Notes under the pieces: model-generated | What the model saw: the letters and a program-made list of their open reading frames with translations, nothing else | Databases searched by the model: none | What the model was told of the DNA's origin: nothing | NCBI RefSeq assembly: GCF_007655485.1 | Contig: NZ_VJXQ01000001.1 | Span: 316,556 to 380,555 of the forward strand | Direction: 5' to 3' | Origin: Halobellus captivus | GTDB taxonomy: Archaea; Halobacteriota; Halobacteria; Halobacteriales; Haloferacaceae | Length of the DNA: 64,000 nt | Part shown: positions 21,716-55,359 of the stretch, piece by piece | Layout of the letters: the number at the start of each line of letters is the position of its first letter | Position numbering within the stretch: the first letter of the stretch is position 1 | Program-made: the position numbers and the translations under genes

Positions 21716-22692
21716 CTCTACGCGGATGATATCACTGCACGAACCTAAATACTGCGGTTATTTCGAACACCGACCGAGACCTGGAGAGGGCCCCTCTCAA
21801 TCACAGCCCAGTCGTCCCCTCGAACGCAGGTCATACCGCCACTTCGAGCGCAGGCCATACCACCTCCGCTAACGTAGATTATCTCGGCGTCTCAGGCGCT
21901 GTACGCCAATGGGTCCGGGTTCAAATATGCAGTTTTCAGCCACCAGCACTCCGAGGGTTGGGTCGGTACGTCCCGCTGCTCAGAGACATCACTGCTTCGG
22001 CGTGCTGGTTCCGACTTCGAACCACCGCGGCGGCTGCTCAATCCACGCGTAGCTGCCCGGTCTCCTGGACGCTGCCGTTCGATATCCACACGCTTTCCGC
22101 TGTTTGTAGTACTCTTCAGATCAGTCTGAAATACCGGCACTACTGAGCGCCCGCCTGAATAATCTGTGCGAGTAAATCGAACGGTGGTTCGGATCATCGG
22201 AAGAGTCATCGCGCGTTCACTGAGTTCCACTGGCACGTGTTTGATTCGCCAGGCCGCACGATACCAAATACGGACCGGGGGACGGACTCCACGGAACCAA
22301 CGAGTCACCGGTTCGAATAACGAAAGTACGACTGTTATGCCGTATCCGAATTCGATCGAGCGATCTCGGCCTTTTTCGTATTCGGTCAACCGAGCGGCCT
22401 CGCTGTCGAAAGATAACTTCAGATACATATCTGCGGTAGAATGATTTGAGTAGCTCGTAAACGGGACCGTTATCGGCCAAAAATGAACCTTCGATCGGCA
22501 ATATATAGGTCAAATTTCGTACATAACCCGCGGTTTCTTGAGAGGACCCGACGCAATCGGTTCACTCCGAATGACGACGCGTTCGATGACGGAGTAGTAC
22601 GGCGATATCGAACGGGTGGGCGGTCGATACTCTCGAACACCGGGTCGACTCGCTGCACAAAGCATATATACACGAGTGCAGATAGGTTTTGT
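21716..22692. other. Gene-poor region, about 980 bases
   Basis: No convincing gene is seen. The region is less GC-rich than its surroundings and holds a two-copy 24-base direct repeat (21820-21843 and 21844-21867). A 16-base match to a tRNA T-arm start lies at 21911-21926 without a matching stem. A 178-codon frame on the reverse strand (21892-22428) is basic and resembles nothing I know. The promoter of the SMC-like gene lies at its right end. It may be an old insertion or decayed gene. Confidence 0.5.
22663..22670 (+). promoter_or_regulatory. TATA box of the SMC-like gene
   Basis: CATATATA, centred 26 bases before the ATG at 22693. This shows that the 70 upstream codons in the same open frame are not translated. 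Confidence 0.6.
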
Positions 22693-24639
22693 ATGGCGAC
22701 TTCCGAACAACTAGCTGAATCCGCTCATTTCTCTGTGGAGAATGTCGGCGGTATCGACAACACCGAGGTGGACATTCCGCCCGGTGTCACCGTTCTCACC
22801 GGCAAGAATGCTACCAACAGGACCTCGTTTCTGCGATCAATTATGGCCGCGATGGGCAGCCAGCGCGTCTCGCTGAAAGGCGACGCCGACGAGGGGCGCG
22901 TCGAACTCACTCTCGACGGCACGACTTACGAGCGAACGCTCACCCGCGCGGGCGACGGTGTCTCCTTCGAGGGCGACGCGTACCTCGACGACCCCGAGGT
23001 CGCCGACCTCTTCGCGTTCCTCTTAGAGACCAACGACGCCAGACAAGCGGCCGCCCGCGGCGAGCAACTCCGCGATGTCATTATGCGCCCCGTCGACGTC
23101 GATGCCATCCGCTCGGAGATCCGCCGTCTCGAAGAGGAGAAAGGCGACATTAACGATACTCTGGCCCGCATCGAATCCAAAAAGCGGGAACTTCCCGAAC
23201 TCGAACAGCGCCGCACCACGCTCAAAGGCAACATCGAGGACAAGCGCGAGGAACTCGCCGCCCTCGAAGACGACATCGACGACAGCAGCCGCGACGTTGA
23301 GGAGGGCCGCAAAGAGCAGGCCGAACTCGAAGAGAAGCTGCAGGAACTCCGCTCGACCCGCTCGGAACTCGAATCGATCCGCCGCAAGATCGAACGCCAA
23401 GAAGAGAGCATCTCCTCGCTGAAGCGCGAGCAGAAAGAACTCGAAGGCGACCTCGACGAGCTCCCCGAGACCCCGATGGGCGACCACCAGGATCTCGACA
23501 CCGAAATCGATCGCCTCCGAACCGAGCGCCAGGATCTGAATACCGCAATCAACGAACTCCGCAGCCTCATCCAGTACAACGAGGAACGCCTGGAAGCCGA
23601 GGACTACGAACTGCTGGAGGACGGCGGCGCGGCCGCCGCAGAGGGCGACGGCTCCGTGACGGACCAGCTCGTCGACTCGGACGACGAGACCGTGGTCTGT
23701 TGGACCTGCGGCTCCTCCGTCGAACGCGAGCAGATCGAATCGACGATCGAACGGCTGAAATCGCTCCGCACGGAGAAGGTCGAGGAACTCAACGAGATCA
23801 AGAGCACGCTCGAAGAGAAGAAACGAGAGCAGCAGGAGGCGACCAAAAAGCAGCGCAAGCGCACGGAGATCGAGCGCAAACTCGACGACATCGACGCGGA
23901 ACTCGACCGCCGCGACGAGCAGATCGACGCGCTGAAGGAGAACCGCGAATCGCTCACCGAAGACGTCGAATCGCTCGAATCAGAGGTGGAAAACCTCGAA
24001 TCGGCGGACTTCGAGGAGATCCTCTCGCTGCACAAGGAGGCGAACCAGCTCGAATTCGAGATCGACAGCCTCGAATCGGATCTCGATTCGGTCACCGAAG
24101 AGATCGAAGAGATCGAAGACGACATCGAGCGGGCCGAAGGGCTCCGCGAGAAGCGGACGGAGCTCGTCGACGCGCTGACCGACCAGCGGACGAAGATCGA
24201 CCAGATCGAGGCGGAAGCCGTCGAGTCGTTCAACGAGCACATGGAGTCGATTCTCGAACTCTTAGGCTACGAGAACATCGAACGGATCTGGATCGAGCGG
24301 ATCGAGGGCGCTGGGACGAGTGACGGGCAGACGCGCTTCGAGCTGCACATCGTGCGGACGACTGAGAACGGGGCGGCCTACGAGGACACGATCGATCACC
24401 TTTCGGAAAGCGAGCGGGAAGTCACGGGACTGATCTTCGCGCTGGCGGGCTATCTCGTCCACGATCTCCACGAGTCGGTGCCGTTTATGCTGTTGGACTC
24501 GCTGGAAGCGATCGACTCGGACCGGATCGCGGCTCTCGTCGAGTACTTCGCGGACTACGCGGACTTCCTCGTGGTGGCGCTCTTGCCCGAGGACGCCCAG
24601 GCGCTCGACGACGACTTCACCCGAGTGACGTCCATCTGA
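22693..24639 (+). CDS. sph3: Archaeal SMC-like protein (Sph3-like)
   Basis: A 648-residue Rad50/SMC-like protein of the haloarchaea-specific group. It has an N-terminal head and a long coiled coil from about residue 140, interrupted near residues 336-339 by a CWTC motif that resembles a zinc hook. A second coil arm follows to about residue 515, then the C-terminal head with the signature HLSESEREVTGLIFALAG and a Walker B region FMLLDSLEAID. The Walker A region is unusual: LTGKNATNRTSF, where GxxGKS/T would be expected. The next gene is rdfA-like; in Haloferax volcanii a neighbouring sph3-rdfA pair affects rod/disk cell shape. The start at 22693 is set by the TATA box. Confidence 0.85.
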   Translation: MATSEQLAESAHFSVENVGGIDNTEVDIPPGVTVLTGKNATNRTSFLRSIMAAMGSQRVSLKGDADEGRVELTLDGTTYERTLTRAGDGVSFEGDAYLDDPEVADLFAFLLETNDARQAAARGEQLRDVIMRPVDVDAIRSEIRRLEEEKGDINDTLARIESKKRELPELEQRRTTLKGNIEDKREELAALEDDIDDSSRDVEEGRKEQAELEEKLQELRSTRSELESIRRKIERQEESISSLKREQKELEGDLDELPETPMGDHQDLDTEIDRLRTERQDLNTAINELRSLIQYNEERLEAEDYELLEDGGAAAAEGDGSVTDQLVDSDDETVVCWTCGSSVEREQIESTIERLKSLRTEKVEELNEIKSTLEEKKREQQEATKKQRKRTEIERKLDDIDAELDRRDEQIDALKENRESLTEDVESLESEVENLESADFEEILSLHKEANQLEFEIDSLESDLDSVTEEIEEIEDDIERAEGLREKRTELVDALTDQRTKIDQIEAEAVESFNEHMESILELLGYENIERIWIERIEGAGTSDGQTRFELHIVRTTENGAAYEDTIDHLSESEREVTGLIFALAGYLVHDLHESVPFMLLDSLEAIDSDRIAALVEYFADYADFLVVALLPEDAQALDDDFTRVTSI

Positions 24640-24697
24640 GACGTCGCTGGCGACAGACCCCAGTACATTTTTGAGCCCGTTCGGCGAAGGGGTGACA

Positions 24698-25315
24698 ATG
24701 CCAGATACGACCGACAACCGACCGTCGAGCAAGGTGGCGCGGCTCATCGCCGAATACGAGCTCGAAGGGCTGGGAGACGAGCTTGAGGCTCGATGGACGG
24801 GCAACGGGGTCGAGCGGATGAGTCTCCGTGACCTCGCCGATCACTTCAACGAACGCTTGCTCGAACAGACGCTCATCGACGCCGGAATGAGCGCCCTCGA
24901 GAGCGACGTCTCGACGACGTACCAGAACCTCACCGACGACGAGGTCAGTACCGGTGTCAGAACCGACGCGCGAAGTCGGCTCGAACAGAACGGTGTCGAC
25001 GTCGACACCCTCGAATCCAACTTCGTCAGCTATCAGGCGATCAGATCGTATCTCACGGAGTATCGCGACGCGGAGTACCGCCAGCTCTCCGACGAGGAGA
25101 AGGTCGAAAAAGACCTCCAAAGCATCCAACGGTTGATGACGCGGACGCTATCGGTGACAGAAGAACGGATCGAGAAGCTGAGAGAGACCGGTCGGATCGA
25201 TATCGACGAGTTCGAGGTGTTACTCGATATGCAGGTGCTCTGTCAGCGCTGCGGAGACCAATACTCCGTCGCTGAATTCCTCGAAAATCGCGGGTGTGAT
25301 TGTCAGCGGGAGTGA
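24698..25315 (+). CDS. rdfA: Rod-determining factor RdfA-like protein
   Basis: A 205-residue soluble protein matching the RdfA family. The N-terminal part has KVARLIAEYELEGLGDELE and WTGNGVERMSLRDLADHFN, the middle is helical and acidic, and the C-terminus has a probable zinc site (CQRCGDQYS through CDC). RdfA is needed for rod-shaped cells in Haloferax and is thought to act as a regulator of shape genes. It lies 58 bases after the SMC-like gene on the same strand and also has a weak TATA-like sequence at 24663-24671, so it may be transcribed both alone and with its neighbour. The start ATG at 24698 was chosen over 24671 because of this spacing. Confidence 0.85.
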   Translation: MPDTTDNRPSSKVARLIAEYELEGLGDELEARWTGNGVERMSLRDLADHFNERLLEQTLIDAGMSALESDVSTTYQNLTDDEVSTGVRTDARSRLEQNGVDVDTLESNFVSYQAIRSYLTEYRDAEYRQLSDEEKVEKDLQSIQRLMTRTLSVTEERIEKLRETGRIDIDEFEVLLDMQVLCQRCGDQYSVAEFLENRGCDCQRE

Positions 25316-25361: not shown

Positions 25362-25441
25362 CGCTCGACGCCGAGAGCGCACAATCGAAGACGAGAGATC
25401 ACAGTCGACGACGAGAAATCACTACCGACCGTCCGAGTCAC
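25362..25441. repeat. 20-base tandem repeat array
   Basis: Three clear 20-base units (25362, 25382, 25402), consensus near CANTCGACGACGAGAAATCA, and a weaker fourth (25422-25441) that runs into the stop codon of the IclR gene. It lies between the convergent rdfA-like and iclR genes. Confidence 0.65.
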
Positions 25442-26202
25442 CGTTGGCTCAATTTCAACTCCAGTTCGTTCGTCGCGCCCCTGATCTGATCGATGATTCC
25501 GTCGGCGAGCTGCTGATCGGTCAGTCGGTTCGCCGGTCCGGCGACACTTATCGCTCCGACGACCTCGCCGCCGACGATGATCGCTTTCCCGATAGCCCGC
25601 GCTCCCTCGACCGCCTCTTGATCGTTGATCGCGTAGCCGCGTTCGCGCGTGCGCTCCAGTACCTCGAAGAGTTCTTCGCGCGTGTTGATCGTATGAGGCG
25701 TCCGCTGTTCGAGACCGTGCCTGTCGATGATCTCGTCGACGCGCGCTTCGGGGAGGTACGCCAGGATACTTTTTCCCGACGCCAGCTGGTGGAGATACGA
25801 GCGCGTTCCGATGCGTGCGTGCGTCTGGACGGCCTGTTCGCCCAGTGCGTAGTCGAGGTACACCGCGCGCCCGTGCTCTTCGGTCACGAGCCAGGTGGCT
25901 TCGCCGGTCTCTCTCGCAAGCTGTTTGATCGTTCGCTTGCCGACCGTGGCGATATCGTGTCGATCCCGGGCTTTGATCCCGTGATCCAGGAAGCGGAGAC
26001 CGATATCGTACTTCCCGTCGGTTTTTACGAGGTATTCTAAGTCGTGTAGCGACGAGAGGTAGTCGTGAGCGGTGCTCGTGGGGACGTCGAGCGCCTCGGT
26101 TATCTCCGTCGCACCCAGCGGACCCCGTGATTGAATCAATTCGACAATCTCGGAGACCCGCTGGACCGATTGTAGTTTAATGGTCCCGTTTGTCATTGTC
26201 AT
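25438..26202 (-). CDS. IclR-family transcriptional regulator
   Basis: A 254-residue IclR protein. The helix-turn-helix is GATEITEALDVPTSTAHDYL. The effector domain includes HQLASGKSILAYLPEARVDE and VVGAISVAGPANRLTD. Starts at 26202 (ATG) or 26196 (ATG) are both possible; the longer frame to 26310 has a basic, family-unlike extension. The gene is read away from a 507-base gap that separates it from the LigM-like gene. By position it is the likely regulator of the O-demethylase/decarboxylase group that follows. The effector is unknown, but IclR members controlling protocatechuate and other aromatic pathways are well known. Confidence 0.9.
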   Translation of the reverse strand: MTMTNGTIKLQSVQRVSEIVELIQSRGPLGATEITEALDVPTSTAHDYLSSLHDLEYLVKTDGKYDIGLRFLDHGIKARDRHDIATVGKRTIKQLARETGEATWLVTEEHGRAVYLDYALGEQAVQTHARIGTRSYLHQLASGKSILAYLPEARVDEIIDRHGLEQRTPHTINTREELFEVLERTRERGYAINDQEAVEGARAIGKAIIVGGEVVGAISVAGPANRLTDQQLADGIIDQIRGATNELELKLSQR

Positions 26203-26709
26203 AGAGGCAGATAAGAAGCCGCTGGACCTTAGGTTTGCGGTCCCGGACGAGTAGGACTCAATTCGAAACTGTCGGATCAACCATCTCCGGCCCGACGGCT
26301 CACAGTCCACCGATTCGGGCGATGTAGGCCCGTTCCGACCCGAATCTGGCCGCGGTTCGCTCAGCGATCCCCCGAGGAGGATGCGTCTATCGTAGTACCA
26401 GGCTGTTTGCCATCGGATATCTGTAAATCCGCCTATCTCGAAATATCACGCTGCATTAACGGATCGCGTTCTCGACGAACCTCGGCATATAACAACTTAA
26501 AATAACACCCGTACATATGTTATCCAAGTAGTTTACTCCACTATCCCTAATCATTGATCACATCAAATGATCCGATAGTATCGGAAGGTTTGAGCGAGAT
26601 CTCATCCAGCCGACGCCGTTGCGAACCGCTCACGGAGGCGAAGACGTGAAAATCACCACACAAAGAGACGGCGTGCGAGTGGGAACGAGAGCTTACGGAT
26701 TGTCGTCGA
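26203..26709. other. Gene-free stretch before the LigM-like gene end
   Basis: About 500 bases without a supportable gene. The part from 26440 to 26600 is AT-rich. It contains a perfect 6+1+6 inverted repeat CCGATAGTATCGG at 26572-26584, which may be an operator or chance. It holds the upstream region of the IclR gene; no good TATA box was found at the expected distance. Confidence 0.4.
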
Positions 26710-28053
26710 CTATTCGCCTTTCCGACGGTCCGCGGAGTACGGAACCTTGCCGACGGTGGCCGAGATCTCACACTGGGCGTGTCGTTCGACCTTCGGATTC
26801 GGCGAGTCCTGTTCGCCCCAGATCAGCGTGACCTCCGTGCCGGGGTCGGCGTGATCGACGTCGATGCTGCACAGAGAGATGATCGTGCCCGCGTCGTATT
26901 CGTAGGACCGCGAGTGCGACAGTCCGATTCGCTCGCCGTCGACCAACACCTCATCGTAGTTCGCCCGCCCCCATCCGATCCGGGGCAGGTCCATAAACTT
27001 CTTCGTCTCGCCGTCGCGGAACAGCGACGCGTAGACGTCGATGACGTCCTCTTCGTCCCACGCGAGCGACACGAGCGTTCGTTCGGGATCTTCGACCATC
27101 GATTCGAGCGCGTCGCGCCCGACGTAGTCGTGATCGAAGCTGATGAGCTTCTTATAACCGAGCTCGATCGGGTCCATATAGTACTCGGAGATGTCGTCGG
27201 AGACGAAGCTGCCGTCGATGGAGTACGTCGCCTCTCGGCTATCGGCGTCGAGCCACTCGCGGTAGCCGCTCATCTCGTCGACGTCGTAGATCGGCGGGAC
27301 GCCCGGCGGGACCCACCCGAGCTTCACCGAGAGGGTGTGATAGGACTTCGACCCGAGCTGTTTGAGACCGTGCTCGCGACCGGCCTCGACGATGGCTTCG
27401 CGAACCTGTTCGGACTGCTCGAACGGCCCGATGAACTCGAAGCCGAACTCCGTCGACATGCCGTGCCCGAGCGCGATGGTCTCGACGCCCGCGAGGTCGA
27501 TCGTCTCGAAGTGGTAGAACGGGATCGAATCGAGGTCGGCGTCCGTGACCTGTTCGAGGACCGCCCGCGCGTTCGGGCCCTGCACCTGGAACACGAAGTT
27601 CTCGGGGTCTCCCTCGTGAGCAGACGTCCGGGGTTCGGTTTCGACGGTGGCGTCGTAATCCCCCGTCTCGAGGTTGTAGCGCACCCAGTTCGCAGACAGC
27701 ATTCCGGCGCTGTAGTACTCCTCGTCGTCGAGGCGAAGCATCGGGCCGTCACCGATGATGTGGCCGTTCGGGTTGCACATCACGAGCTGTTTCGCGCGAC
27801 CGATCTCGTAGTTCTCGAAGCTGTTGACACTGAGGTCGCGCAGCAACTCCCGCGCGTCGGGACCGGTGACGCGCAGCGCAGTCATGTGGTGCGATAGGTT
27901 CGCGAACGAGACCGTTTCGGTGACCGACCGTTGTTCGTCCAGCCAGTTCGTGATCTCGTTCGGAACGACCGGGAAGTTGTCCGTGTAGTTGCCGCCTTTC
28001 TGACGCAGTACTTCGACAGGGTTACCGGACGCCTGAATGTCTTCGGGGTCCAT
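26710..28053 (-). CDS. LigM/DesA-like tetrahydrofolate-dependent O-demethylase
   Basis: A 447-residue protein of the GcvT (aminomethyltransferase) fold. It matches the LigM/DesA branch better than true GcvT: an NWLDEQ segment, SHHM at residues 54-57, GHIIGDG, NWVRYNLETGDYD, GSFVSDDISEYYMDP, FDHDYVGRDALE, and a C-terminal GTEVTLIWGE. LigM moves the methyl group of vanillate to tetrahydrofolate, giving protocatechuate; DesA does this with syringate. Haloarchaea use folates, so the chemistry is possible. A TATA box (28076-28090, reverse strand) precedes the ATG. The adjacent upstream gene is an ACMSD/LigW-type decarboxylase. A sarcosine- or DMSP-type demethylase is an alternative, judged less likely from motif order. 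Confidence 0.78.
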   Translation of the reverse strand: MDPEDIQASGNPVEVLRQKGGNYTDNFPVVPNEITNWLDEQRSVTETVSFANLSHHMTALRVTGPDARELLRDLSVNSFENYEIGRAKQLVMCNPNGHIIGDGPMLRLDDEEYYSAGMLSANWVRYNLETGDYDATVETEPRTSAHEGDPENFVFQVQGPNARAVLEQVTDADLDSIPFYHFETIDLAGVETIALGHGMSTEFGFEFIGPFEQSEQVREAIVEAGREHGLKQLGSKSYHTLSVKLGWVPPGVPPIYDVDEMSGYREWLDADSREATYSIDGSFVSDDISEYYMDPIELGYKKLISFDHDYVGRDALESMVEDPERTLVSLAWDEEDVIDVYASLFRDGETKKFMDLPRIGWGRANYDEVLVDGERIGLSHSRSYEYDAGTIISLCSIDVDHADPGTEVTLIWGEQDSPNPKVERHAQCEISATVGKVPYSADRRKGE

Positions 28054-28075
28054 ACTGCGAGAGGGTCACCCCACA

Positions 28076-28090
28076 TACTTAAATATACCT
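28076..28090 (-). promoter_or_regulatory. TATA box of the first LigM-like gene
   Basis: GGTATATTTAAGTA-type sequence on the reverse strand, centred about 29 bases before the ATG at 28053. Confidence 0.6.
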
Positions 28091-28238
28091 TACTCGGAAA
28101 CAAACGGATATATTCGCAGATAATCGTCAAATTATATGAAAACCAGCTCACCGGTGACGATACCGGGGCGACTGCAGAGATTGGGCGGTTCGAGGAGTGG
28201 GTACCTCGGTTGGCTCGAATCGTCGCTTCGGAGCGTCG

Positions 28239-29228
28239 TTACAGGTCGAGGAGACGCTTGATGTTCCCCGAGAGGATCTTCTCTTTGTCCGCCTCCGAAA
28301 TATCGAGCTCATCGATGATCGGGAGGATCTTCGTCACCCAGTATTGGCCCTTGTCGGGGCCAAACGGGTAATCGGCGCTGTAGACGACGTTGTCCGCGCC
28401 GAAGAACTCGAGGCCGCACTCTAGCGGGTACGACTCGCCCTGGCTGCTGACGGCGGTGTCGCCGTAGATCCGATCGAAGTAGGCGTCGAGGGGTTCGGAG
28501 AGGTCGGCGATCGCCGGGTTCTGATACAGTTCGGGCTCCTCGGTCCGCGTCTGGTACCACGAGCGGATCCGTCCGATCTGGTAGGGGAACGAGCCGCCGA
28601 GGTGATGAGAGATGATGTCCAGATTCTTGTGGCGGTCGAGCACGCCGGAGAAAATCAGCCGCGCGAGCGCGATGTTGGTATCGAACGGCCACGCGAGCAT
28701 CTTGTAAATCCACGTGTGGGAGTTGTCGTAGTCGTGCCAATCCGCCAGCTGCGGGTGGATCCAGATGGGTACGTCGAGGTCGTCGACGGTCGCGTAGAAC
28801 TCCTCGAAATCGTCGTCGTCCAGCATCTTGCCGTCGATGTTCGAGAAGATTTGGATGCCGTGCATCCCCAGTTCCTCGACACAGCGGCGGGCCTCATCGA
28901 CGTACTCATCGGTGAGGAACGGCAGCGTCCCCGTCGCGATGAATCGGTCGGGGTGCTTGTCGGCGATCCGTCGAATCTCGTTGTTCGCGACGCGCGTGGC
29001 TTCGAGGGCGTCGTCGGGATCGATTCCCTGCCACAGCATCGGCGCGGAGAGATTGATGACTTGTCTGTCGATCGCGTTCTTGTCGAGGTAGTCCAGTCGA
29101 CCGTCGATCTCGAACATTCGCGGGGCGTTGCGGAGGCTGTCCAGTTCGGACGTCGGATGGACTTTCTCGATTTCGCTGAGCGCCTCCTCTGTCATAATGT
29201 GGGAGGTCGCGTCTATGATCTCAGGCAT
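28239..29228 (-). CDS. ACMSD/LigW-type amidohydrolase, probable decarboxylase
   Basis: A 329-residue amidohydrolase-2 protein. Expected metal ligands are visible: His10 in DATSHI, a His in IWIHPQ, a His in IISHHLGG, and the Asp in YSADYPFG near the C-terminus. This branch contains non-oxidative decarboxylases of aromatic or muconate acids, such as 2-amino-3-carboxymuconate-6-semialdehyde, 5-carboxyvanillate (LigW), gamma-resorcylate and the protocatechuate 2,3-pathway PraH. Hydrolases are a minority. It is encoded just upstream of the LigM-like gene on the same strand, with its own TATA box (near 29256). It shares the GIQIFSNIDG-LDDDDF stretch with the second copy at 58085-59062. Confidence 0.82.
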   Translation of the reverse strand: MPEIIDATSHIMTEEALSEIEKVHPTSELDSLRNAPRMFEIDGRLDYLDKNAIDRQVINLSAPMLWQGIDPDDALEATRVANNEIRRIADKHPDRFIATGTLPFLTDEYVDEARRCVEELGMHGIQIFSNIDGKMLDDDDFEEFYATVDDLDVPIWIHPQLADWHDYDNSHTWIYKMLAWPFDTNIALARLIFSGVLDRHKNLDIISHHLGGSFPYQIGRIRSWYQTRTEEPELYQNPAIADLSEPLDAYFDRIYGDTAVSSQGESYPLECGLEFFGADNVVYSADYPFGPDKGQYWVTKILPIIDELDISEADKEKILSGNIKRLLDL

Positions 29229-29382
29229 CGTTCGTCGATTGACGCAATCGTACTTAAATCATTGTGTGCCTCGGGTGAATGTTCGTAGTCGCTCACCCCC
29301 CGACGCGTCAGGCAGACAACGAGACACGGCGTTTGACAGCGGGGCGCAAAGCCTAATACTGTCTGCCTGTGTACAACGTGGT

Positions 29383-30822
29383 ATGTCTCAAGAACGCGTC
29401 GAGCAGCGGGGGATGTTTATCAACGGCACGTATCGGCAGACGGACGAGACGTTCGATGTAGAGGACCCATCGACGGGCGACGTGATCGCCTCGGTGACCG
29501 CCGCTGGCAGCTCCGGCGTGGACGCCGCGCTCGAATCGGCCGAACGCGCACAGGCCGAGTGGGCGGCGATGGACCCCGTTGAGAGAGGGCGCGTTCTGCG
29601 CGAGGTGGCCCGCGGACTCGAAGCGCACGTCGACGAGGTCGGCGAACTTGCCAGTCGGGAGATCGGTCGCCCGCTCGGCCAGTCTAAGCACCTGGTTGCC
29701 AACGCCGTCGACTACCTCGATTACTACGCCGGAATGACCGACAAAATCGAGGGCGAGAGCTTCCCCCTGAAACCGTCCAACCAGGCGTTCAGTCGAAAGG
29801 AACCGATCGGGGTGAGTGCACAGATCGTGCCGTGGAACGCCCCCGTACTCCTCTGTTTCCGCGGCGTTGCGCCCGCGCTCGCGGCGGGCAACGCGGTCGT
29901 CGTTAAGCCGTCTCCGTTCGCCCCGGGCGTCATTCTCAAACTCGCCGAAATCGCGAGCGAGGCGGGACTCCCGGACGGCCTGTTCAACGTGGTTCCCGGA
30001 CTGGTCGAGACCAGTAAATCGCTGACGACCGATTCGCGGGTCGATCAGATCACGTTCACCGGATCGGTCTCCACCGGCCAGATCGTCGGGAAAACGGCGA
30101 TCGATCGGGTCATCCCGACCGTTCTCGAACTCGGGGGCAAAAGCCCGGGAGTCGTCTTCGACGACGCCGACTTGGACGCGGCAGTCGACGGCGCGATGAA
30201 GGCGATAACGCTGATCAACGGGCAGGTGTGCTTTGCAACCACCCGGATCTTCGTCCACGAAGACGTCTACGACGAGTTCAAACAGCGGTACGTCGACGCG
30301 GTCGAATCGATCACGCTGGGACCGGGGGTGGAAAACCCCGATCTGGGACCGGTCATCTCCGCGGACGCCGTCGAGCAGATCGACAGCTACGTGCAGAGCG
30401 CCGTCCAGAGCGGTGCGACCGCACTCACCGGTGGTCAGGCCGTCGACCGCGAGGGGAACTTCTACGAACCGACGGTCATCGAGGGGGCCGCTGACGACGC
30501 GGAGATTTCCTGTGAGGAGGTGTTCGGACCGGTCATCAACCTGTACTCGTTCTCCGACGAGGAGGAAGTTATTCGGCGGGCGAACGACACCGAGTTCGGC
30601 CTGTATGCGACCGTCTGGACGAACACGCTCGACCGGGCCCACCGCGTCGCCAACGGCATCGAGGCAGGCAGCGTGATGGTCAACCAGTACGCAGGTTCGC
30701 GACCGCAGACGCCCTTCGGCGGGTACAAGAAGAGTGGCCTCGGCCGCGAGAAGGGAATGCAGGCCGTCGATCACTACACGCAACTGAAGACGGTCAACGT
30801 TAACATCGCTGGCGACGAGTAA
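29383..30822 (+). CDS. NAD(P)-dependent aldehyde dehydrogenase
   Basis: A 479-residue aldehyde dehydrogenase. The cofactor region is SAQIVPWNAPVL and VVKPSPFAP, the general-base Glu lies in VLELGGKSPG, the nucleophilic Cys in NGQVCFATTR, and the C-terminal motif is GYKKSGLGREKG. It oxidises an aldehyde to the acid. Neighbours suggest an aromatic aldehyde such as vanillin or benzaldehyde, but betaine-aldehyde-like activity is also common in haloarchaea. It is divergent from the decarboxylase gene. The start at 29383 replaces a longer frame from 29128 that overlaps the divergent gene; a weak TATA-like CCTAATACT lies 27 bases upstream. Confidence 0.9.
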   Translation: MSQERVEQRGMFINGTYRQTDETFDVEDPSTGDVIASVTAAGSSGVDAALESAERAQAEWAAMDPVERGRVLREVARGLEAHVDEVGELASREIGRPLGQSKHLVANAVDYLDYYAGMTDKIEGESFPLKPSNQAFSRKEPIGVSAQIVPWNAPVLLCFRGVAPALAAGNAVVVKPSPFAPGVILKLAEIASEAGLPDGLFNVVPGLVETSKSLTTDSRVDQITFTGSVSTGQIVGKTAIDRVIPTVLELGGKSPGVVFDDADLDAAVDGAMKAITLINGQVCFATTRIFVHEDVYDEFKQRYVDAVESITLGPGVENPDLGPVISADAVEQIDSYVQSAVQSGATALTGGQAVDREGNFYEPTVIEGAADDAEISCEEVFGPVINLYSFSDEEEVIRRANDTEFGLYATVWTNTLDRAHRVANGIEAGSVMVNQYAGSRPQTPFGGYKKSGLGREKGMQAVDHYTQLKTVNVNIAGDE

Positions 30823-31035: not shown

Positions 31036-32754
31036 CTACGGGCGTTCTACCTTGACGTCAAGCACAGCTGGTCTCCCCGCATCGACGGCTGCGGCCGCCT
31101 CTTCGAGCGCCGCGGGGAGTTCGTCTGGGTCGTGAACCACGCGCGTGTGCGCGTCAACGACGCTCGCGGGTGCAGAGAGGTCCATCGTTGTCCCGAAGTG
31201 ACTCTCCGGAACCGACTCCTCGGCCGCCGCGCCGTCTGGATACTGCGCCGTCGTCGCGCCTTCGACCGCGTTCCACCCCTGGTTGTCGTAGACGACCGTG
31301 AGCGTCGGGGCGTCGTACTCGGCGGCGAGCAACGCGCACGCCGACGGGTTGGCGAACAGATACGAACCGTCACCGACCAGCGCGATCACGCGGTTGTCCG
31401 GATTCGCCAGTTTGGCACCGACGGCTGCTCCGCCCGCCCAGCCAAGTCCAGCGCCTCCCTTCCAGAAGTAGCTGCCCGGCGTCGAGAGTTCGATCTGCGA
31501 CATTATCGCCGGTCGGCTCGTGACCGCGTCTTCGACGACGACGGTCTCCCCGTCGACGATCGACTCGACGGCGTTCGAGAGAACCGTCGGCGTCAGTCGT
31601 CCCTCCCTCGTATCAGCCGCCAAGCGATCGGCTGCGTCCGCACGTCGTTCCGCGGCGATGTCGCGCCAGAACGCCCGGCTCGAATCGGCATCCGTATGGA
31701 GTCTGGCCTCGACGGCTTCGAGCGTCGCAGCGGCGTCGGCCTGTACGGTCTCGTCGATCGCGAACGGCCACCGCGGGTACGCCGGTTTGGTCGGATTGGG
31801 ATCGATCTGAACGACTGTCGCGTCACTCTCGGACGTCTCGGGCCCCGGAATCCACGGAACGTCGGCGTCGGCGAGGACGACGAGGTCCGCGCGCTCGAGC
31901 GCCACCGTCGGGTCGTAGCCGAGGTGTTGCTCGTGGTCGCGCGGGAAACAAAGCGTTGTCGGCGTCTGCTCGACGACTCCGGCACCGGCGGCCTCCGCGA
32001 AGGAGACGAGCGCGTCGACGCGCTCTCCAGCGGGAGATCGACCCAGGTCGCTCGTGATCACCGCCGGGCGCTCCGCGCGCTCGACCTCGGAGACCAGGCG
32101 GTCGATCGACGCGGTGTCGGCACCGCCGGGGCCGACCCGCCGGACGGTCGCCGTCGACGGGGTCGCGTCGACGGTCCCGCTGAGCGCCTCTCGCGTCGCC
32201 GTCACGTACACCGGGCCCGACGGTTCCGAAACGGCCCGCTCTAAGCCGCGGCGGACAGTCTCCGCCGGATCCGCGGGCGGCCGGTACTGGTCGATCCACC
32301 GCGAGTACTCGCGCACGATTCCGGGCTGGTCGAACACGTCCTGGAAGTAGTGCACCGGGTGATCCCGGGATCCGGAGTGCCCGGCGTCAGTGACCGGTGC
32401 GAGCCCCGCGAGCACGAACACCGGGGCGCCAGCGCGGTGTGCGTTGTGCATCGCCGCGCCGAGGTTCTGGGTCCCCACGTCGACGTGTACCAGCACGACC
32501 TGTGGGTCCCCCGTCACGGCGGCGCATCCGTGGGCCGCGCTCATCGCGGCGAACTCGTGCGGGCACGAGATTATCTCCGGAATCTGGTCTCCGTCACCGG
32601 CGCGTCGGACGTCCGCCGCGGCCTCCAGAAGCGGTGTGTGGTCGGTACCGAGATTAGCGAAAATGCGCGCCACGCCCTGCTGGTGGAACGCGCGGAGGAA
32701 TCTCTCAGCGGCGGTACGATCGGCTGTCGGTGAGGTGGTTTCTGATTCTGACAC
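31036..32754 (-). CDS. Thiamine-diphosphate-dependent enzyme (acetolactate synthase/decarboxylase family)
   Basis: A 572-residue three-domain ThDP enzyme. The N-terminal pyrimidine-binding domain has the catalytic Glu67 in SCPHEFAAMSAAHG. A central domain follows, and the C-terminal PP domain has the ThDP motif LVGDGSYLFANPSA running to YDNQGWN. The family includes acetolactate synthase, benzoylformate decarboxylase, indolepyruvate decarboxylase and glyoxylate carboligase. No FAD-specific signature could be judged. Placed next to an aldehyde dehydrogenase and O-demethylase genes, a 2-oxo acid (benzoylformate-like) decarboxylase would fit, but this is inference. The protein is convergent with the aldehyde dehydrogenase and sits downstream of an ABC permease gene on the same strand. 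Confidence 0.82.
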   Translation of the reverse strand: MSESETTSPTADRTAAERFLRAFHQQGVARIFANLGTDHTPLLEAAADVRRAGDGDQIPEIISCPHEFAAMSAAHGCAAVTGDPQVVLVHVDVGTQNLGAAMHNAHRAGAPVFVLAGLAPVTDAGHSGSRDHPVHYFQDVFDQPGIVREYSRWIDQYRPPADPAETVRRGLERAVSEPSGPVYVTATREALSGTVDATPSTATVRRVGPGGADTASIDRLVSEVERAERPAVITSDLGRSPAGERVDALVSFAEAAGAGVVEQTPTTLCFPRDHEQHLGYDPTVALERADLVVLADADVPWIPGPETSESDATVVQIDPNPTKPAYPRWPFAIDETVQADAAATLEAVEARLHTDADSSRAFWRDIAAERRADAADRLAADTREGRLTPTVLSNAVESIVDGETVVVEDAVTSRPAIMSQIELSTPGSYFWKGGAGLGWAGGAAVGAKLANPDNRVIALVGDGSYLFANPSACALLAAEYDAPTLTVVYDNQGWNAVEGATTAQYPDGAAAEESVPESHFGTTMDLSAPASVVDAHTRVVHDPDELPAALEEAAAAVDAGRPAVLDVKVERP

Positions 32755-32885: not shown

Positions 32886-33707
32886 TTATCGGGGGCCGGT
32901 CCCCATCGACGATTTGATGTCTTCTCGCCAGGAGAACAGATACTCCTCCATCTTGCTGAAGATGCCGTACTCGATGACCATCATCAGGATGACGAACAGG
33001 ACGACGTACTGGAGCACACCGACCATCGAGAACCGGCTCATGTTGTCTGCGATGAGGAAACCGATACCGACGTTCGAGATGACGACCTCCGCGAGGATCG
33101 TCACCTTCCACGCGACGGAGAAGGTGAACCGAATCGCGGAGAATATCTCGGGAAGGATCGACTGAAACAGTACTCGGCGGTAGACGCGACTCCGTGAGAC
33201 GCCGAATGCGCTCGACATATTGAGCAGGTCGGATTCGACGTTCTCGACCCCGCTTTGGATGATGTCAACGACGAACGGCGCGGTGATGACCGCAGTCGCG
33301 AGCATCGGCGTGGTGTCGCTGATGCCGAACGCCATCGCGGTGAAGATGACGACGAACAGCCCGGGAACCGCCATCCCGACGAGTACGTAGTACCGAAGGA
33401 CCTTCCCCCAGAAGTTGCTCACGCCGAGCACGACGCCGCCGATGATTCCGACGACAAGTGCGGCGCCGAATCCGAGGAGAATGCGCTGCATCGAAGCGAC
33501 GAAGTGCATCACCCACTCGTCGCCCGACAGGAGCTCGTAGATCCCACCGCCGACTAGGATCGGCGAGGCGATCAGGTCGGTGATACCGAAGATGCGGGCG
33601 CTCAGTTCCCACACGAGTAACAACGCGACGACCGACTCGACGAAGATGACTCTCCGGTTACTGACGAACGCCCGCCCGATCGTCCCACGTAGCTGTGTCG
33701 TGCTCAT
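32886..33707 (-). CDS. NitT/TauT-type ABC permease (system 1, permease A)
   Basis: A 273-residue inner-membrane permease with about six membrane segments and the binding-protein-dependent EAA loop (MSSAFGVSRSRVYRRVLFQS). It belongs to the NitT/TauT/SsuC group, which takes up taurine, sulfonates, nitrate, thiamine precursors and phthalate-type aromatics. It lies seven bases after the binding-protein gene and is surely co-transcribed with it. The ATPase and a second, different permease are encoded divergently at 35326-37071, so the channel may be a heterodimer, unusual for this group. Confidence 0.87.
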   Translation of the reverse strand: MSTTQLRGTIGRAFVSNRRVIFVESVVALLLVWELSARIFGITDLIASPILVGGGIYELLSGDEWVMHFVASMQRILLGFGAALVVGIIGGVVLGVSNFWGKVLRYYVLVGMAVPGLFVVIFTAMAFGISDTTPMLATAVITAPFVVDIIQSGVENVESDLLNMSSAFGVSRSRVYRRVLFQSILPEIFSAIRFTFSVAWKVTILAEVVISNVGIGFLIADNMSRFSMVGVLQYVVLFVILMMVIEYGIFSKMEEYLFSWREDIKSSMGTGPR

Positions 33708-33714
33708 TTGATCC

Positions 33715-34953
33715 TCAGACCATATCCTCGAGATCGGACCGCGTCATAAACGTGACTTGATCCTCCCAGCCCGAGGGGATCTGACCCAGTTCCTCCATCA
33801 CGCCGAGGACGTTCATCGCATCCTCGACGGACTGGTCGTCGAGACCCACCTCGGAGTACAGCGCCGAGCGCTGGAGACTCTCGATTTGTTCGACTTCGTT
33901 TCCGGCGAAGAGGTCCATCAGGAAGCGCGCTTCCTCCTCGTTTTCGGCTTCGAGCGTTTCTTGACCGGCCGGGTCGGCGGCGATATCCGGAATGTTGTCT
34001 TGGACGTAGTTCAACCCTTCACTCCACATATCGATCATATTCAACAGGACTTCGGGGTTCTCCTCGGCGAAGTCCAGCCGCGTCGAGAGGCTCACGAGCG
34101 GCGGTCGCCCCCACCCCTGATCGAGGTACTCGTTCCAGATCCACAGGAGCGGTTTGAGCTCCCCGTTGACGACCTCCGAGAGACCGGCAGAGGACGCCGA
34201 GTGAACGGCCGTCGCGAGGTCACCGCGCAGGGTGAGCTGTGGCATCGTCCCGCGCTCCGTCGTCTGAACGTTGAAGTCGCCACCGTCCTGCGCCAGAGTG
34301 TAGCCGTACTTCTCTTGGATGATGTTCTGTAGGTGCGGAACCGCGCCCGCGGCCCACCCGGGGATGCCGAACCGGGCACCCTCGTCGACGATCTTGTCGA
34401 GCGACTCCTGAACGCCGCCGGTCTCGTCGGGATCGTATGGTCCGCCGACCTCGACCCACGGCGTCGAAACGACACCCTCGATATTACCGAATGCGACGAG
34501 TTGCTGGTCTTGCTCGACGCCGAGGCGCGCGTCTTCGACCCAGCTCACGGTGCCCATATCGATCTGGCCGGACGCGAAGAGCGTCGCATCTTCGAAGGTG
34601 AGCTCGTAATCGAGCTCATAGCCGTCCTCCTCGAACCGCGGTTGGATGAGATCATTCTCCGCGAGGTAGTATTCCATCACGATGTTGACGGGCATTCCGA
34701 CCGGCGGCGTCGCGAACGAAACTGTCGTGAGATCCTCGCTGCCGCCACTGTCTCCCCCGCTGTCGCCGCCACTGTCCCCCCCGCTGTCGCCGCTACTGTC
34801 CCCCCCGCTGTCATCGCTACTGTCGCCGCCACCGTCTCCACCGCTTGTACAACCCGCAAGGGTGACCGCGGCCGCACTGGCCCCGGCTGCCTTAATGAAT
34901 CTCCGTCTGTTTACACCGCTGACTGTTCGGATTGCCTCTTTATCGCGTGGCAT
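33715..34953 (-). CDS. NitT/TauT-type ABC substrate-binding lipoprotein (system 1)
   Basis: A 412-residue extracellular binding protein. The twin-arginine signal NRRRFIKAAGASAAA ends in the lipobox TLAGC. A long linker of DSGG/DSSG repeats follows and then a type II periplasmic-binding fold (TVSFATPPVGMPVNIVMEY, TVSWVEDARLGV). Homologues bind sulfonates, nitrate or aromatic acids. The linker DNA is itself a short tandem repeat (about 34740-34830). The ATG at 34953 has a TATA-like box on the reverse strand near 34981. It is the first gene of a two-gene unit with the permease at 32886. Confidence 0.87.
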   Translation of the reverse strand: MPRDKEAIRTVSGVNRRRFIKAAGASAAAVTLAGCTSGGDGGGDSSDDSGGDSSGDSGGDSGGDSGGDSGGSEDLTTVSFATPPVGMPVNIVMEYYLAENDLIQPRFEEDGYELDYELTFEDATLFASGQIDMGTVSWVEDARLGVEQDQQLVAFGNIEGVVSTPWVEVGGPYDPDETGGVQESLDKIVDEGARFGIPGWAAGAVPHLQNIIQEKYGYTLAQDGGDFNVQTTERGTMPQLTLRGDLATAVHSASSAGLSEVVNGELKPLLWIWNEYLDQGWGRPPLVSLSTRLDFAEENPEVLLNMIDMWSEGLNYVQDNIPDIAADPAGQETLEAENEEEARFLMDLFAGNEVEQIESLQRSALYSEVGLDDQSVEDAMNVLGVMEELGQIPSGWEDQVTFMTRSDLEDMV

Positions 34954-35252
34954 ACGATGTCACATCAGGATCTATGATTAAAAACCCATCGGTTGTATGA
35001 TACAGTCTCAGGTGGAGCCCGTTCGACCCGACTATCGAGATACCGGCGTCCAGAATGATCGTGGTTTTCTTTCTGAGGCGCGCTATATTGGGCTTTCAGG
35101 TGGATCTCCTATTTTCATTGTGAATCCTCACCGAGAACTCAGTCACCAGTTCCGCGTGGCAATATATCAAACATTCAACCTCTATTGGATCTTTGTGTTG
35201 GTGTGACGTAGCAAATCTAAAGTACACCCATTCTCAATACGTGGTTACAGCG
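34954..35252. other. Intergenic region between divergent ABC operons
   Basis: About 300 bases, AT-rich for this genome, holding the binding-protein promoter near 34981 and a possible TATA box (35215-35224) for the rightward operon. The open frames in it are short, not acidic and show no recognisable similarity. Confidence 0.45.
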
Positions 35253-35336
35253 ATGAAAGAGAATCATTCTCACGCAGTAGGTCTCCGGGCACACCGAAAC
35301 GCCACGGTGATCAGGGGTGGTCTTCGTGGCCTCTGA
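35253..35336 (+). other. Possible 27-codon leader ORF overlapping the ABC ATPase start
   Basis: ATG at 35253 to TGA at 35334-35336, overlapping the ATPase gene start in another frame. A TATA-like sequence lies about 33 bases upstream. It may be a coupling leader for the ATPase gene, as proposed for 36194 and 47285, but the spacing is less good and the peptide is His/Arg-rich. Confidence 0.3.
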
Positions 35337-36123
35337 GACGCGGCAGGCGACTGACGCGGACGACGTGGCGGGCGTTTCACACGGGACTTCGGCGGCGGGA
35401 GCCATCCACGTCAGAAACCTCACGAAGGTCTTCGACACCGAAGAGGGAACCGAGACGGTCTTCGAGGACGTGAGTTTCGACATCGAACCCGGTTCGTTCG
35501 TGACGTTGATCGGCCGCTCCGGGAGCGGCAAGTCGACGATGCTGAACATCATCAGTAACGTCCTCGAACCGACGGCGGGCACCGTAGAGTTCGAGGGAAC
35601 GCAAAACGACGAAGTCACGCTCGGTCACGTCTTCCAATCGCCGCGTCTCCTCCCGTGGAACACCTGCGTGCAGAACATCGAGTACGTTCACGAGAACAAC
35701 CCGGAGTACACGCGTGACCTCGCCGAAGAGTACATGGACCTCGTCGGTCTCACCGAACACTACGATAAATACCCCTCACAGCTCTCCGGCGGCCAGCGAC
35801 AGCGTGTCGGAATCACCCGTGCGCTGAGTATCGACCCCGAGATACTGATTATGGACGAGCCGTTCAGCAACCTCGACGAGATTACCGCGGAGGCGCTCCG
35901 CGAGGAACTCATCGACATCTGGCAGAAACTCGGAAAGACCGTGTTCTTCGTCACGCACGACATCACCGAGGCGATAGAACTCTCCGATCGAATCTTGATG
36001 CTCGGCGACGGACGCATCTTCGACGATATGTCCATCGACCTCGAACGCCCACGAGACGTCGATTCTGAGGAGTTTTTGAAGGTCCGACAGGACGCGATCA
36101 ACCGGTTCCACGCGATCACCTGA
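35326..36123 (+). CDS. NitT/TauT-type ABC ATPase (system 1)
   Basis: A 265-residue ATPase with Walker A GRSGSGKSTMLN, Q-loop LGHVFQSPRLLPW, signature LSGGQRQRVGITRA, Walker B ILIMDEPFSNLDE and an H-loop His in VTHDITEA. It energises the importer formed with the permeases at 32886 and 36262 and the binding protein at 33715. The start is uncertain: GTG at 35326 has a GGGGTGG Shine-Dalgarno-like sequence five bases upstream, while GTG at 35317 overlaps that sequence. It is followed by a permease gene after 138 bases that contain a small leader ORF. Confidence 0.88.
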   Translation: MASETRQATDADDVAGVSHGTSAAGAIHVRNLTKVFDTEEGTETVFEDVSFDIEPGSFVTLIGRSGSGKSTMLNIISNVLEPTAGTVEFEGTQNDEVTLGHVFQSPRLLPWNTCVQNIEYVHENNPEYTRDLAEEYMDLVGLTEHYDKYPSQLSGGQRQRVGITRALSIDPEILIMDEPFSNLDEITAEALREELIDIWQKLGKTVFFVTHDITEAIELSDRILMLGDGRIFDDMSIDLERPRDVDSEEFLKVRQDAINRFHAIT

Positions 36124-36162
36124 TATGAGTGAATGTCTGCGCGCAAGGCGTGAAAACCAAAT

Positions 36163-36171
36163 GATTAAGTA
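36163..36171 (+). promoter_or_regulatory. TATA-like box before the leader ORF
   Basis: GATTAAGTA, centred 27 bases before the ATG at 36194. It suggests that a leaderless transcript starts there, inside the ABC operon. Confidence 0.45.
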
Positions 36172-36193
36172 TGCTCGATCGACAGTGAGCGCT

Positions 36194-36256
36194 ATGTACG
36201 TGACATACTCGCCCGTCTCGGAGTCAGTGATGCTCCCGAGCGGAGGGGGGAAGTAG
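36194..36256 (+). other. 20-codon leader ORF upstream of the second permease
   Basis: An ATG at ideal leaderless spacing from a TATA-like box opens a 20-codon frame ending TAG at 36254-36256, only five bases before the permease ATG at 36262. Its last codons contain GGAGG (36242-36246), which could serve as a Shine-Dalgarno site for the permease. A translated leader that couples to the permease gene is proposed; the peptide itself (MYVTYSPVSESVMLPSGGGK) is not recognised. Confidence 0.45.
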
Positions 36257-36261
36257 TCCAA

Positions 36262-37071
36262 ATGGCGACGAGTAACCGCTCATTCCGAACGCCGATCCGT
36301 TCGATGGTCGGTGACAAATGGGCTGCGCGCATATTTGGGGTTGTCATCGGTCTTGCGGCGTGGTGGATTGTCACGGTGCTCTTCCCGCGGGGACTGTTCC
36401 CGGGACCGGTCGCGACGGTAAACGCCTCGTGGGAAATCATTGCTTCCGGGGTAGTCTGGACGCATATGCAAGCGACGTTTTTCCGGACGTTCCTCGGGTT
36501 CATCGGGGCGTTCCTCGTCGGTGCGGCACTCGGAATCATTATGGGGATCAACAACTTCGGTGAACACTTCTCAACGCCGATCATCGTGATCGCGCTGTCG
36601 ATTCCAGGGATCGCCTGGGCCGCGATCACGACGATCATCTTCGGATTCGGGGTCGCTGCACCCGTCCTGGCGACGGCCGTCACCGTCTTCCCGTACATTT
36701 CGCTGCGGATCTGGAAAGGCGTCGAGAACATCGATCCAAACCTCCTTCGGATGAGCCGTTCCTTCGATATTTCGAGGTCGCGACTGCTCAGACGGATGAT
36801 CCTCCCGAGCGTCGCACCGGCGCTGTTCACCGCGATCCGATTCGGGCTGGCGATCTCGTGGAAAGTCGAGACCCAGGCGGAGATCTTCGCGTCGAACACC
36901 GGCGTCGGCTACCGTGCGATCGAGGCGTTTTCGCGGTACCAGTACGACACGGCGATGGCGTGGGCCGCCGTCTTCGTGGTCGTCGTCTTCATCCTGGAGA
37001 TGGGCATCCTTCGCCCCCTCGAACGGAAGGTATTCGCGTACCGAGAAGAAGCGGACTTCGGTGTCCTCTGA
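36262..37071 (+). CDS. NitT/TauT-type ABC permease (system 1, permease B)
   Basis: A 269-residue permease with about six membrane segments and the EAA loop MSRSFDISRSRLLRRMILPS. It is of the TauC/SsuC type but only distantly like permease A of the same system. Its ATG lies five bases after a short leader ORF that carries a Shine-Dalgarno-like GGAGG, so translation may depend on coupling. Together with the ATPase at 35326 it completes the system-1 importer. A UspA gene follows. Confidence 0.87.
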   Translation: MATSNRSFRTPIRSMVGDKWAARIFGVVIGLAAWWIVTVLFPRGLFPGPVATVNASWEIIASGVVWTHMQATFFRTFLGFIGAFLVGAALGIIMGINNFGEHFSTPIIVIALSIPGIAWAAITTIIFGFGVAAPVLATAVTVFPYISLRIWKGVENIDPNLLRMSRSFDISRSRLLRRMILPSVAPALFTAIRFGLAISWKVETQAEIFASNTGVGYRAIEAFSRYQYDTAMAWAAVFVVVVFILEMGILRPLERKVFAYREEADFGVL

Positions 37072-37144
37072 CCGGCACGACCTCGGTACTGCGATCCGCT
37101 TTTGCTGCGTTCGTTTCGGTTTCGACGATCCGCCGGGACGTGAT

Positions 37145-37151
37145 GTTATAT
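37145..37151 (+). promoter_or_regulatory. TATA box of the second UspA gene
   Basis: TTATATA, centred about 28 bases before the ATG at 37176. It rules out the upstream in-frame start at 37143, which overlaps the box. Confidence 0.6.
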
Positions 37152-37175
37152 ACGTGGCACGTGAACACGATTCGT

Positions 37176-37694
37176 ATGGCGGTTCTAGCTGCAACAGATG
37201 GGACGATCGTCCCGGACCGAGTGGTCGAAACCGGAGCCGAACTCGCCGAACAGTTCGGCGAGGAACTCCTCGTGCTTCACGTCATACCGCGAGACGTCTT
37301 CGAGTCACAACGCAAATCATCCGTGGAGAGCACGTCTGACCTCGCACTGACATTCGCACCTGAGATCACCTACCGGGAGCTGGGCGATCAGACCGGGGAA
37401 CCCGGAGGCAGCGACGAGCGGTATTCGCTCGAAGCCGCCCAGCGGGACGCCGCGGGGGTCGCCGCCGACGTCACCGAAGAAACGGTCGGCGACCTCGAGA
37501 AGGTCTCCTACCTCGGGCGCATCGGTGACGTCACCGAGGAGATACTCGCGGTCGCGAACGCCGAGAACCCGCGATATCTGGTCGTGGGCGGGCGAAAACG
37601 AACCCCCGTCGGGAAAGCGATCTTCGGCAGCGTCACACAATCGGTGCTACTCGAGTCCGACCTGCCTGTCGTGACCGTACTGTCTGACGGATAA
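37176..37694 (+). CDS. Universal stress protein (UspA family)
   Basis: A 172-residue UspA protein that starts MAVLAATDGT and ends with the nucleotide-binding signature GGRKRTPVGKAIFGSVTQ and the strand LPVVTVLSDG. A longer insert between residues 45 and 110 distinguishes it from the shorter UspA at 2871. It has its own TATA box although it follows the ABC permease gene on the same strand. UspA proteins often accompany transporters in haloarchaea, possibly as ATP-responsive modulators; nothing in the sequence shows a specific partner. Confidence 0.88.
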   Translation: MAVLAATDGTIVPDRVVETGAELAEQFGEELLVLHVIPRDVFESQRKSSVESTSDLALTFAPEITYRELGDQTGEPGGSDERYSLEAAQRDAAGVAADVTEETVGDLEKVSYLGRIGDVTEEILAVANAENPRYLVVGGRKRTPVGKAIFGSVTQSVLLESDLPVVTVLSDG

Positions 37695-37795
37695 TCGAAC
37701 GTTCTCGGCGGTGGCGATCGCTGAGTTCGGTGGACAGCTTTCCAGAGGCCACGACCGAACGGTTATGCCACCTCGGAGAAAATCGGTGACTCGAA

Positions 37796-42964: not shown

Positions 42965-43346
42965 TCTATCGCATTGCTCCGCGTTCCCCGACCGAATAAA
43001 GATTCGGACTATCGAAGCGCGTGGAATTCTCCCGGAGCGTCTGTATCTGACCAGACCCAACCGTACGACACCGTACCGCCGACTGAGTATATATTAATAA
43101 ATAGCTACTATCGCATACGCATTCCCATTGATGAGCGGGTTTTCTGCGAAGAACACAGAGTCTTTCGAATGCGTTTGGCGGTTATTTCTAATTGGAAAGT
43201 TCCTGACAATATGCCAACGATCGATAGTGGCACCCATAGAAAGATTATTATACGCAGTTCCTCTTGTGTGACGTGTTCACACGATCTATGTTCCACCAGT
43301 ATACGTGCGAAAACATTCTACAGTTGACAGAACAACGAGGGTTGCA
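42965..43346. other. AT-rich intergenic region
   Basis: About 380 bases without a supportable gene. A markedly AT-rich block (about 43085-43115) contains TATATATTAATAAATA, which could serve as a promoter in either direction. The short open frames here are not acidic and have no recognisable similarity. The ATPase promoter (weak TATA-like ACATTCTAC near 43316) lies at its end. Confidence 0.4.
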
Positions 43347-50586: not shown

Positions 50587-50672
50587 GCGCTGGCGACGAC
50601 TGTCCGTTTCGATCCCTTTCGTCGCGGGCTGACACTCCGAATCTGATGATCCGATTCCTTGGAGGGATCGCT

Positions 50673-50686
50673 AAATGTATATAAGA
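50673..50686 (+). promoter_or_regulatory. TATA box of the extradiol dioxygenase gene
   Basis: AAATGTATATAAGA, centred about 27 bases before the ATG at 50707. Confidence 0.6.
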
Positions 50687-50706
50687 GAACTACGAACGAA
50701 TTCTGT

Positions 50707-51654: not shown

Positions 51655-51701
51655 GGTCGATCCCGGTCAGCCCGGGAATTCTTTCTCTTACCTTCGTACC
51701 C

Positions 51702-52481: not shown

Positions 52482-52500
52482 AGGCTCGCTTCCGCCGGAG

Positions 52501-52510
52501 GCATCAAATA
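52501..52510 (-). promoter_or_regulatory. TATA box of the hydratase-family gene
   Basis: TATTTGATGC on the reverse strand, about 26 bases before the ATG at 52481. It rules out the longer open frame. Confidence 0.5.
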
Positions 52511-53064: not shown

Positions 53065-53124
53065 GACGGTCGGCTCTTCTCAACAGTCAAAACGATCCGC
53101 GAACGAATGCTGAAAACGGGAGGT

Positions 53125-55358: not shown

Positions 55359-55359
55359 T

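Follow-up and report, generated by a model that had tools for sequence, protein, structure and literature searches.

Gene content of the locus

The DNA analysed here, a window of 64,000 nucleotides from Halobellus captivus (GCF_007655485.1, contig NZ_VJXQ01000001.1, positions 316,556-380,555, forward strand), carries two neighbouring genes of interest on its minus strand. The first (26710-28053) encodes a 447-residue protein assigned to the LigM/DesA superfamily by profile, structure match, tree and alignment, and a proposed tetrahydrofolate (THF)-dependent O-demethylase. The second (28239-29228) encodes a 329-residue Amidohydro_2 protein, a proposed metal-dependent decarboxylase of the clan that contains ACMSD, gamma-resorcylate decarboxylase and LigW. 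In Sphingobium SYK-6, LigW turns 5-carboxyvanillate into vanillate, which is then demethylated by LigM. A sequence-only reading of this locus, which had placed both open reading frames at the same coordinates, side by side and on the same strand, proposed that they form a vanillate-type module.

The pair is flanked, as had been claimed, by a divergently transcribed aldehyde dehydrogenase gene (29383-30822, plus strand), which is present at most ortholog loci. An IclR-family regulator gene adjoining the pair (25438-26310, minus strand), a candidate regulator of the module, is found at nearly all ortholog loci including that of Halarchaeum. Further along lie the gene of a thiamine-pyrophosphate-requiring protein (31036-32754, minus strand), a looser member of the neighbourhood whose product scores above the PRK08327 cut-off, ABC importer genes with a candidate Tat-signal binding protein (32886-34953, minus strand; 35317-37071, plus strand) and an SDR gene (37796-38521, plus strand). 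The thiamine-pyrophosphate-requiring protein is present at the ortholog loci L025 and L026 and absent at L027, and a LigM-like gene of Thermomicrobium roseum adjoins a protein with the same annotated name. Kin of the ABC/SDR stretch (32886-38521) also occur near the pair in Halarchaeum. A Rad50/SMC-like protein and a small partner gene (22483-25315) occupy the same place at most ortholog loci, and a similar twosome is located near C17:146815-148000.

Each of the two genes is preceded by a TATA-like TTTAAG element (28078-28083 for the LigM-like gene and 29253-29258 for the amidohydrolase gene, both on the minus strand) that starts exactly 30 bp before the ATG. These positions are kept in most Halobellus orthologs, and the frequency of TTTAA in the window is only about 8.6e-5 per strand position. 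The earlier prediction that each gene has its own TATA box is thereby borne out at the sequence level, and the arrangement is consistent with separate, nearly leaderless transcripts. The palindrome GGGGTGACCC and its variants, situated between the TATA box and the ATG of the LigM-like gene, were considered as an operator and rejected, because palindromes with arms this short (4-5 bp) are no commoner in the window than chance predicts.

Family and tree position of the LigM-like protein

The product of 26710-28053, which contains a GCV_T domain, matches solved LigM over its full length (residues 6-444, E 4e-98). Among the NCBIfam models, DesA (430.8 bits) and LigM (406.7 bits) score highest, compared to GcvT (83), TMAO demethylase (73), SoxA (72) and DmdA (50). 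The cut-offs of the equivalog models for LigM (NF047885, 580 bits) and DesA (NF047633, 800 bits) are not reached, nor are the curated cut-offs of 300, 1164 and 410 bits for GcvT, sarcosine oxidase and DMSP demethylase. Plasmid-borne proteins of Novosphingobium and Rhizobium exceed the LigM/DesA cut-offs, one example being a Rhizobium leguminosarum plasmid protein with 782 bits on the LigM model. AlphaFold models of both window proteins came from shallow alignments and had mean pLDDT values of 63 and 62, so their use was limited to fold-level matching and did not extend to active-site geometry. At this level, the top fold matches of the low-confidence model of the LigM-like protein are all LigM, with 38-39% identity in the alignment.

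A tree of 68 rows was calculated in which GcvT and DMGDH-like proteins of the same genome served as outgroup and the bacterial rows came solely from plasmids, while DmdA and SoxA were compared by score and fold outside the tree. The LigM-like protein, its Halobellus and Halarchaeum orthologs and two in-genome paralogs (C12:491737 and C15:131810) form a clade of 11 rows (support 100/100), far from the GcvT and DMGDH-like outgroups. This clade falls outside a 44-row clade (100/99) that unites the bacterial LigM/DesA-type rows with most other haloarchaeal paralogs. Bacterial LigM/DesA are nested among haloarchaeal rows, from which no direction of transfer is inferred because the bacterial sample comprises plasmids only. 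The nearest named relatives of the gene are those of H. rufus (89%), H. rarus (87%) and H. clavatus (85%), where the flanking genes are the same. The genome holds 21 GCV_T matches and 14 LigM-like matches with E below 1e-60. One LigM-like paralog (L022, C1:579467-580808) is broken by a run of N and looks split, probably by an assembly gap.

On these sequence grounds, the protein can be assigned to the LigM/DesA superfamily in a wide sense, nearer to LigM/DesA than to GcvT, DmdA, SoxA or TMAO demethylase, in line with the LigM homology first claimed. Scores and fold speak against a placement within the glycine-cleavage, sarcosine or DMSP demethylases, and the tree against one with GcvT, the outcome that the sequence-only reading had named as fatal to its proposal. 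An enzyme acting on a non-aromatic methylated compound, such as a brine osmolyte of the glycine betaine, DMSP or TMAO type delivered by the neighbouring ABC importer, has to be weighed here, as enzymes for DMSP, TMAO and dimethylglycine belong to the GcvT superfamily, genes of an NMT1/SsuA-like ABC importer lie close by and the substrate pocket differs from that of LigM. This substrate class is nevertheless distinctly improbable: the scores for osmolyte families are 5-8 times lower than those for DesA/LigM, the tree, in which DmdA is not among the rows, groups the protein with LigM/DesA and away from GcvT and DMGDH-like proteins, and paralogs adjoin aromatic ring-cleavage genes.

Active-site residues

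In LigM, Arg122 is the residue that anchors the vanillate carboxylate. The alignment with LigM revealed that Tyr29, His59, His60, Phe188, Glu215, Tyr247 and Trp256 are retained, whereas Tyr31 is replaced by Phe and the Arg122 position is occupied by Met, with a two-residue deletion at this site. An arginine stands there in every sampled bacterial row of the LigM/DesA clade and in none of the haloarchaeal rows. The residue comparison suggested by the sequence-only reading recovered the SHHM region and not the carboxylate-binding arginine; the catalytic tyrosine of LigM, Tyr247 (PMC9296663), has its counterpart in Tyr238 of the window protein. Substrate recognition is probably unlike that of LigM with vanillate, and the designation "vanillate pathway" is too specific because the enzyme is devoid of the residue used to hold this substrate.

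A second type of LigM-like paralog is encoded in the window at 41624-43060 (minus strand). It has no His pair, carries Ser at the position of the catalytic Tyr and adjoins an NMT1-type ABC importer. Three genes of this type are present in the genome, the others at C1:285232 and C15:123401, and their products may catalyse another reaction or have no catalytic role.

The amidohydrolase and the vanillate proposal

Profile searches identified the product of 28239-29228 as a member of the Amidohydro_2 family. Its nearest solved and characterised relatives in a single-sequence search are ACMSD (98.9 bits), gamma-resorcylate decarboxylase (96.5) and LigW (92.8); a six-sequence profile gave 133.3 bits for LigW, 128.6 for ACMSD and 106.3 for gamma-resorcylate decarboxylase. 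The edge of LigW over ACMSD is negligible by profile, reversed in the single-sequence search and absent by fold comparison, so that nothing sets LigW apart from the other clan members in similarity to this protein. Since the three enzymes are about equally distant, the protein is best described as a member of the decarboxylase clan and not specifically as LigW; the ACMSD/LigW-type neighbour that had been claimed is therefore present in this general sense. The best profile match is 3IJ6, a solved structure of no known function. LigJ and LigY rank well below the decarboxylases (52-56 versus 133 bits by profile), and the fold search agrees.

The clan binds its metal through a first ligand that is His or Glu, followed by His, His and Asp. 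One of these four is missing from the amidohydrolase, in which Thr8 takes the first position (Tyr or Phe in close relatives, Tyr in 3IJ6), and His10, His158 and Asp286 are kept. The protein shares the Amidohydro_2 clan and the TIM barrel with LigW/LigW2, gamma-resorcylate decarboxylase and ACMSD and retains the equivalents of His10, His158, His209 and Asp286, but differs from them in having Thr8 instead of His or Glu as first ligand. Decarboxylation is likely, though with this threonine not certain. The comparison with LigW envisaged earlier holds as far as the clan and no further.

These data bear on the literal form of the vanillate module, in which the amidohydrolase would decarboxylate 5-carboxyvanillate (or a different carboxylated guaiacyl acid) to vanillate, which the LigM-like enzyme would convert to protocatechuate. 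The same two superfamilies do lie side by side in a conserved manner, and, among characterised proteins, LigW structures rank near the top of the profile search (133 versus 129 bits for ACMSD). Against vanillate as substrate stand the loss of Arg122 with the accompanying two-residue deletion and the position of the protein outside the bacterial LigM/DesA clade, with 407 of the 580 bits and 431 of the 800 bits set as equivalog cut-offs. 5-Carboxyvanillate as precursor is likewise unsupported by an amidohydrolase whose similarity to LigW does not exceed that to ACMSD and whose first metal ligand is missing. We regard this form of the module as very unlikely.

Conservation of the pair

The LigM-like and amidohydrolase genes are adjacent at all nine orthologous loci, which come from eight Halobellus genomes, and the IclR regulator and the aldehyde dehydrogenase are usually near. 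In Halarchaeum rubridurum the two genes are adjacent but divergent, with products 71% (LigM-like) and 54% (amidohydrolase) identical to those of the window. Both in-genome paralogs of the window clade also adjoin Amidohydro_2 genes, located at C12:487552 and C12:489105 for the paralog at C12:491737 and at C15:130022 for the paralog at C15:131810. The 3.35 Mb genome has 17 Amidohydro_2 matches, and four of them are at most about 5 kb from the three LigM-like members of the clade. The association of LigM-like with amidohydrolase genes holds at the level of the clade and is beyond chance.

Separate TATA boxes and the divergent orientation in Halarchaeum would also suit two independently promoted genes that are neighbours by accident and have no common pathway. 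The pairing, however, survives between families and recurs with different amidohydrolases at both other clade members in the genome, so that accidental adjacency appears highly improbable. A small Rieske ferredoxin is encoded beside both clade paralogs (L131, C12:488775; L133, C15:131306), and none was seen beside the window gene.

Folate and aromatic setting

Among 292 genomes of the class, MTHFR is encoded in 13 of the 13 with strong LigM/DesA-like matches and in 71 of the 292 overall (Fisher p 4e-9), and outside Halobellus in five of five LigM/DesA-like genomes compared to 57 of 278 (p 4e-4); these p values serve as guides only, because the genomes are related and eight of the 13 belong to one genus. 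In 8 of the 13 genomes, about 2.5 kb or less separates MTHFR from a LigM-like gene. A control search gave no MTHFR match for Haloferax volcanii. In H. captivus, the MTHFR gene at C16:181055 adjoins the LigM-like gene at C16:181991 and not that of the window. Bacterial relatives display the same link of MTHFR to LigM-like genes, as in the LigM-S6MTHFR pair of Sphingobium (PMC12585457).

Other LigM-like paralogs adjoin extradiol dioxygenases, folate genes, an HpaI-type aldolase, acyl-CoA ligases and Liv transporters, and the neighbour of one matches the 4,5-dihydroxyphthalate decarboxylase 9JP7 with 262 bits. In one such region (L132, C15:120372-123471), two LigM-like paralogs enclose a pair of class II aldolase genes, which are PhtC-like with scores under the cut-off, and the gene of a 4,5-dihydroxyphthalate-decarboxylase-type protein. 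Another (L134, C16:172000-191999) combines two LigM-like paralogs with MTHFR, an HpaI-type aldolase, a VOC protein, two acyl-CoA ligases, a Liv-type ABC importer and a D-2-hydroxyacid dehydrogenase.

The window itself contains a catechol meta-cleavage cluster (50659-60095), 21 kb from the pair, with genes for an extradiol dioxygenase, two FAA-family hydratase/decarboxylase proteins, DmpG- and DmpF-like proteins, an aldehyde dehydrogenase and an IclR regulator. No ring-cleavage dioxygenase was found inside the conserved synteny block of the pair. The demethylase could act as proposed while the amidohydrolase serves after ring cleavage, either as a LigY/LigJ-like hydrolase or hydratase or as an ACMSD acting on a ring-opened semialdehyde. 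An amidohydrolase paralog (58085-59074) indeed resides in the meta-cleavage cluster, a VOC-family protein is a neighbour in Halobaculum and R. etli, and the first metal ligand is missing; the higher ranking of decarboxylases over LigJ/LigY, by profile and by fold, makes this role unlikely.

Proposed function and comparison with known systems

The reading that we favour, with modest confidence, is a haloarchaeal pair of THF-dependent O-demethylase and decarboxylase for a methoxylated compound, most likely an aromatic one of the lignin type. The LigM-like enzyme would bind THF in its GcvT-type domain and, with the conserved Tyr, transfer the methyl group of the substrate to THF, yielding 5-methyl-THF and a phenol; the co-occurrence with MTHFR supports this transfer indirectly. 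The MTHFR encoded elsewhere, beside another LigM-like paralog, could return the methyl group to the C1 pool by oxidising 5-methyl-THF. The amidohydrolase would most likely take a carboxyl group off this compound as well, either ahead of the demethylation or following it, and the product may then enter a ring-cleavage route, for example that of the meta-cleavage cluster. What stands of the vanillate-type module first proposed is a conserved functional association in an aromatic-catabolic, folate-linked setting; vanillate as substrate and its 5-carboxylated precursor are not supported.

The protein has in common with LigM, the vanillate/3-O-methylgallate O-demethylase of Sphingobium SYK-6 (PDB 5X1I-N, 5TL4), full-length homology, the folate domain and membership of an MTHFR-linked superfamily; it differs in the missing Arg122, the change of Tyr31 to Phe, its place outside the LigM/DesA clade, its archaeal origin and its amidohydrolase neighbour. 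The syringate O-demethylase DesA, its best NCBIfam model, has the same fold and catalytic Tyr, but the score remains below the cut-off and the Arg122 equivalent of bacterial DesA is missing here. Archaeal O-demethylation of methoxylated aromatics has been described for the Mto corrinoid system of the anaerobes Methermicoccus and Archaeoglobus (PMC8630106, PMC8359953). This methyltransferase system is unrelated to the haloarchaeal proteins, which are of the THF type and have no corrinoid partner in view. The literature search retrieved only corrinoid systems for archaeal O-demethylation and no report of a LigM-type demethylase in haloarchaea, which is weak evidence as subscription papers lay outside its coverage. 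The LigM-type enzyme family has so far been studied in bacteria.

A wider proposal, which we hold more tentatively and just short of evenly balanced, is that haloarchaea, and Halobellus above all, possess an expanded folate-based demethylation of many methoxylated aromatics. The LigM/DesA paralogs, 14 of them in this genome, would recognise their substrates without the LigM arginine and be served by MTHFR working toward methylene-THF, and the window clade would be a unit of demethylase and decarboxylase with a variant metal site. Many genes that now carry the label "aminomethyltransferase family protein" or "glycine cleavage T" would become testable enzymes. If true, the system would give Archaea a second means of aryl-O-demethylation, one that works without corrinoids. 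Such a folate-based, apparently aerobic haloarchaeal system would tie lignin-type carbon to hypersaline habitats and would offer salt-tolerant demethylases in many paralogs with differing active-site residues.
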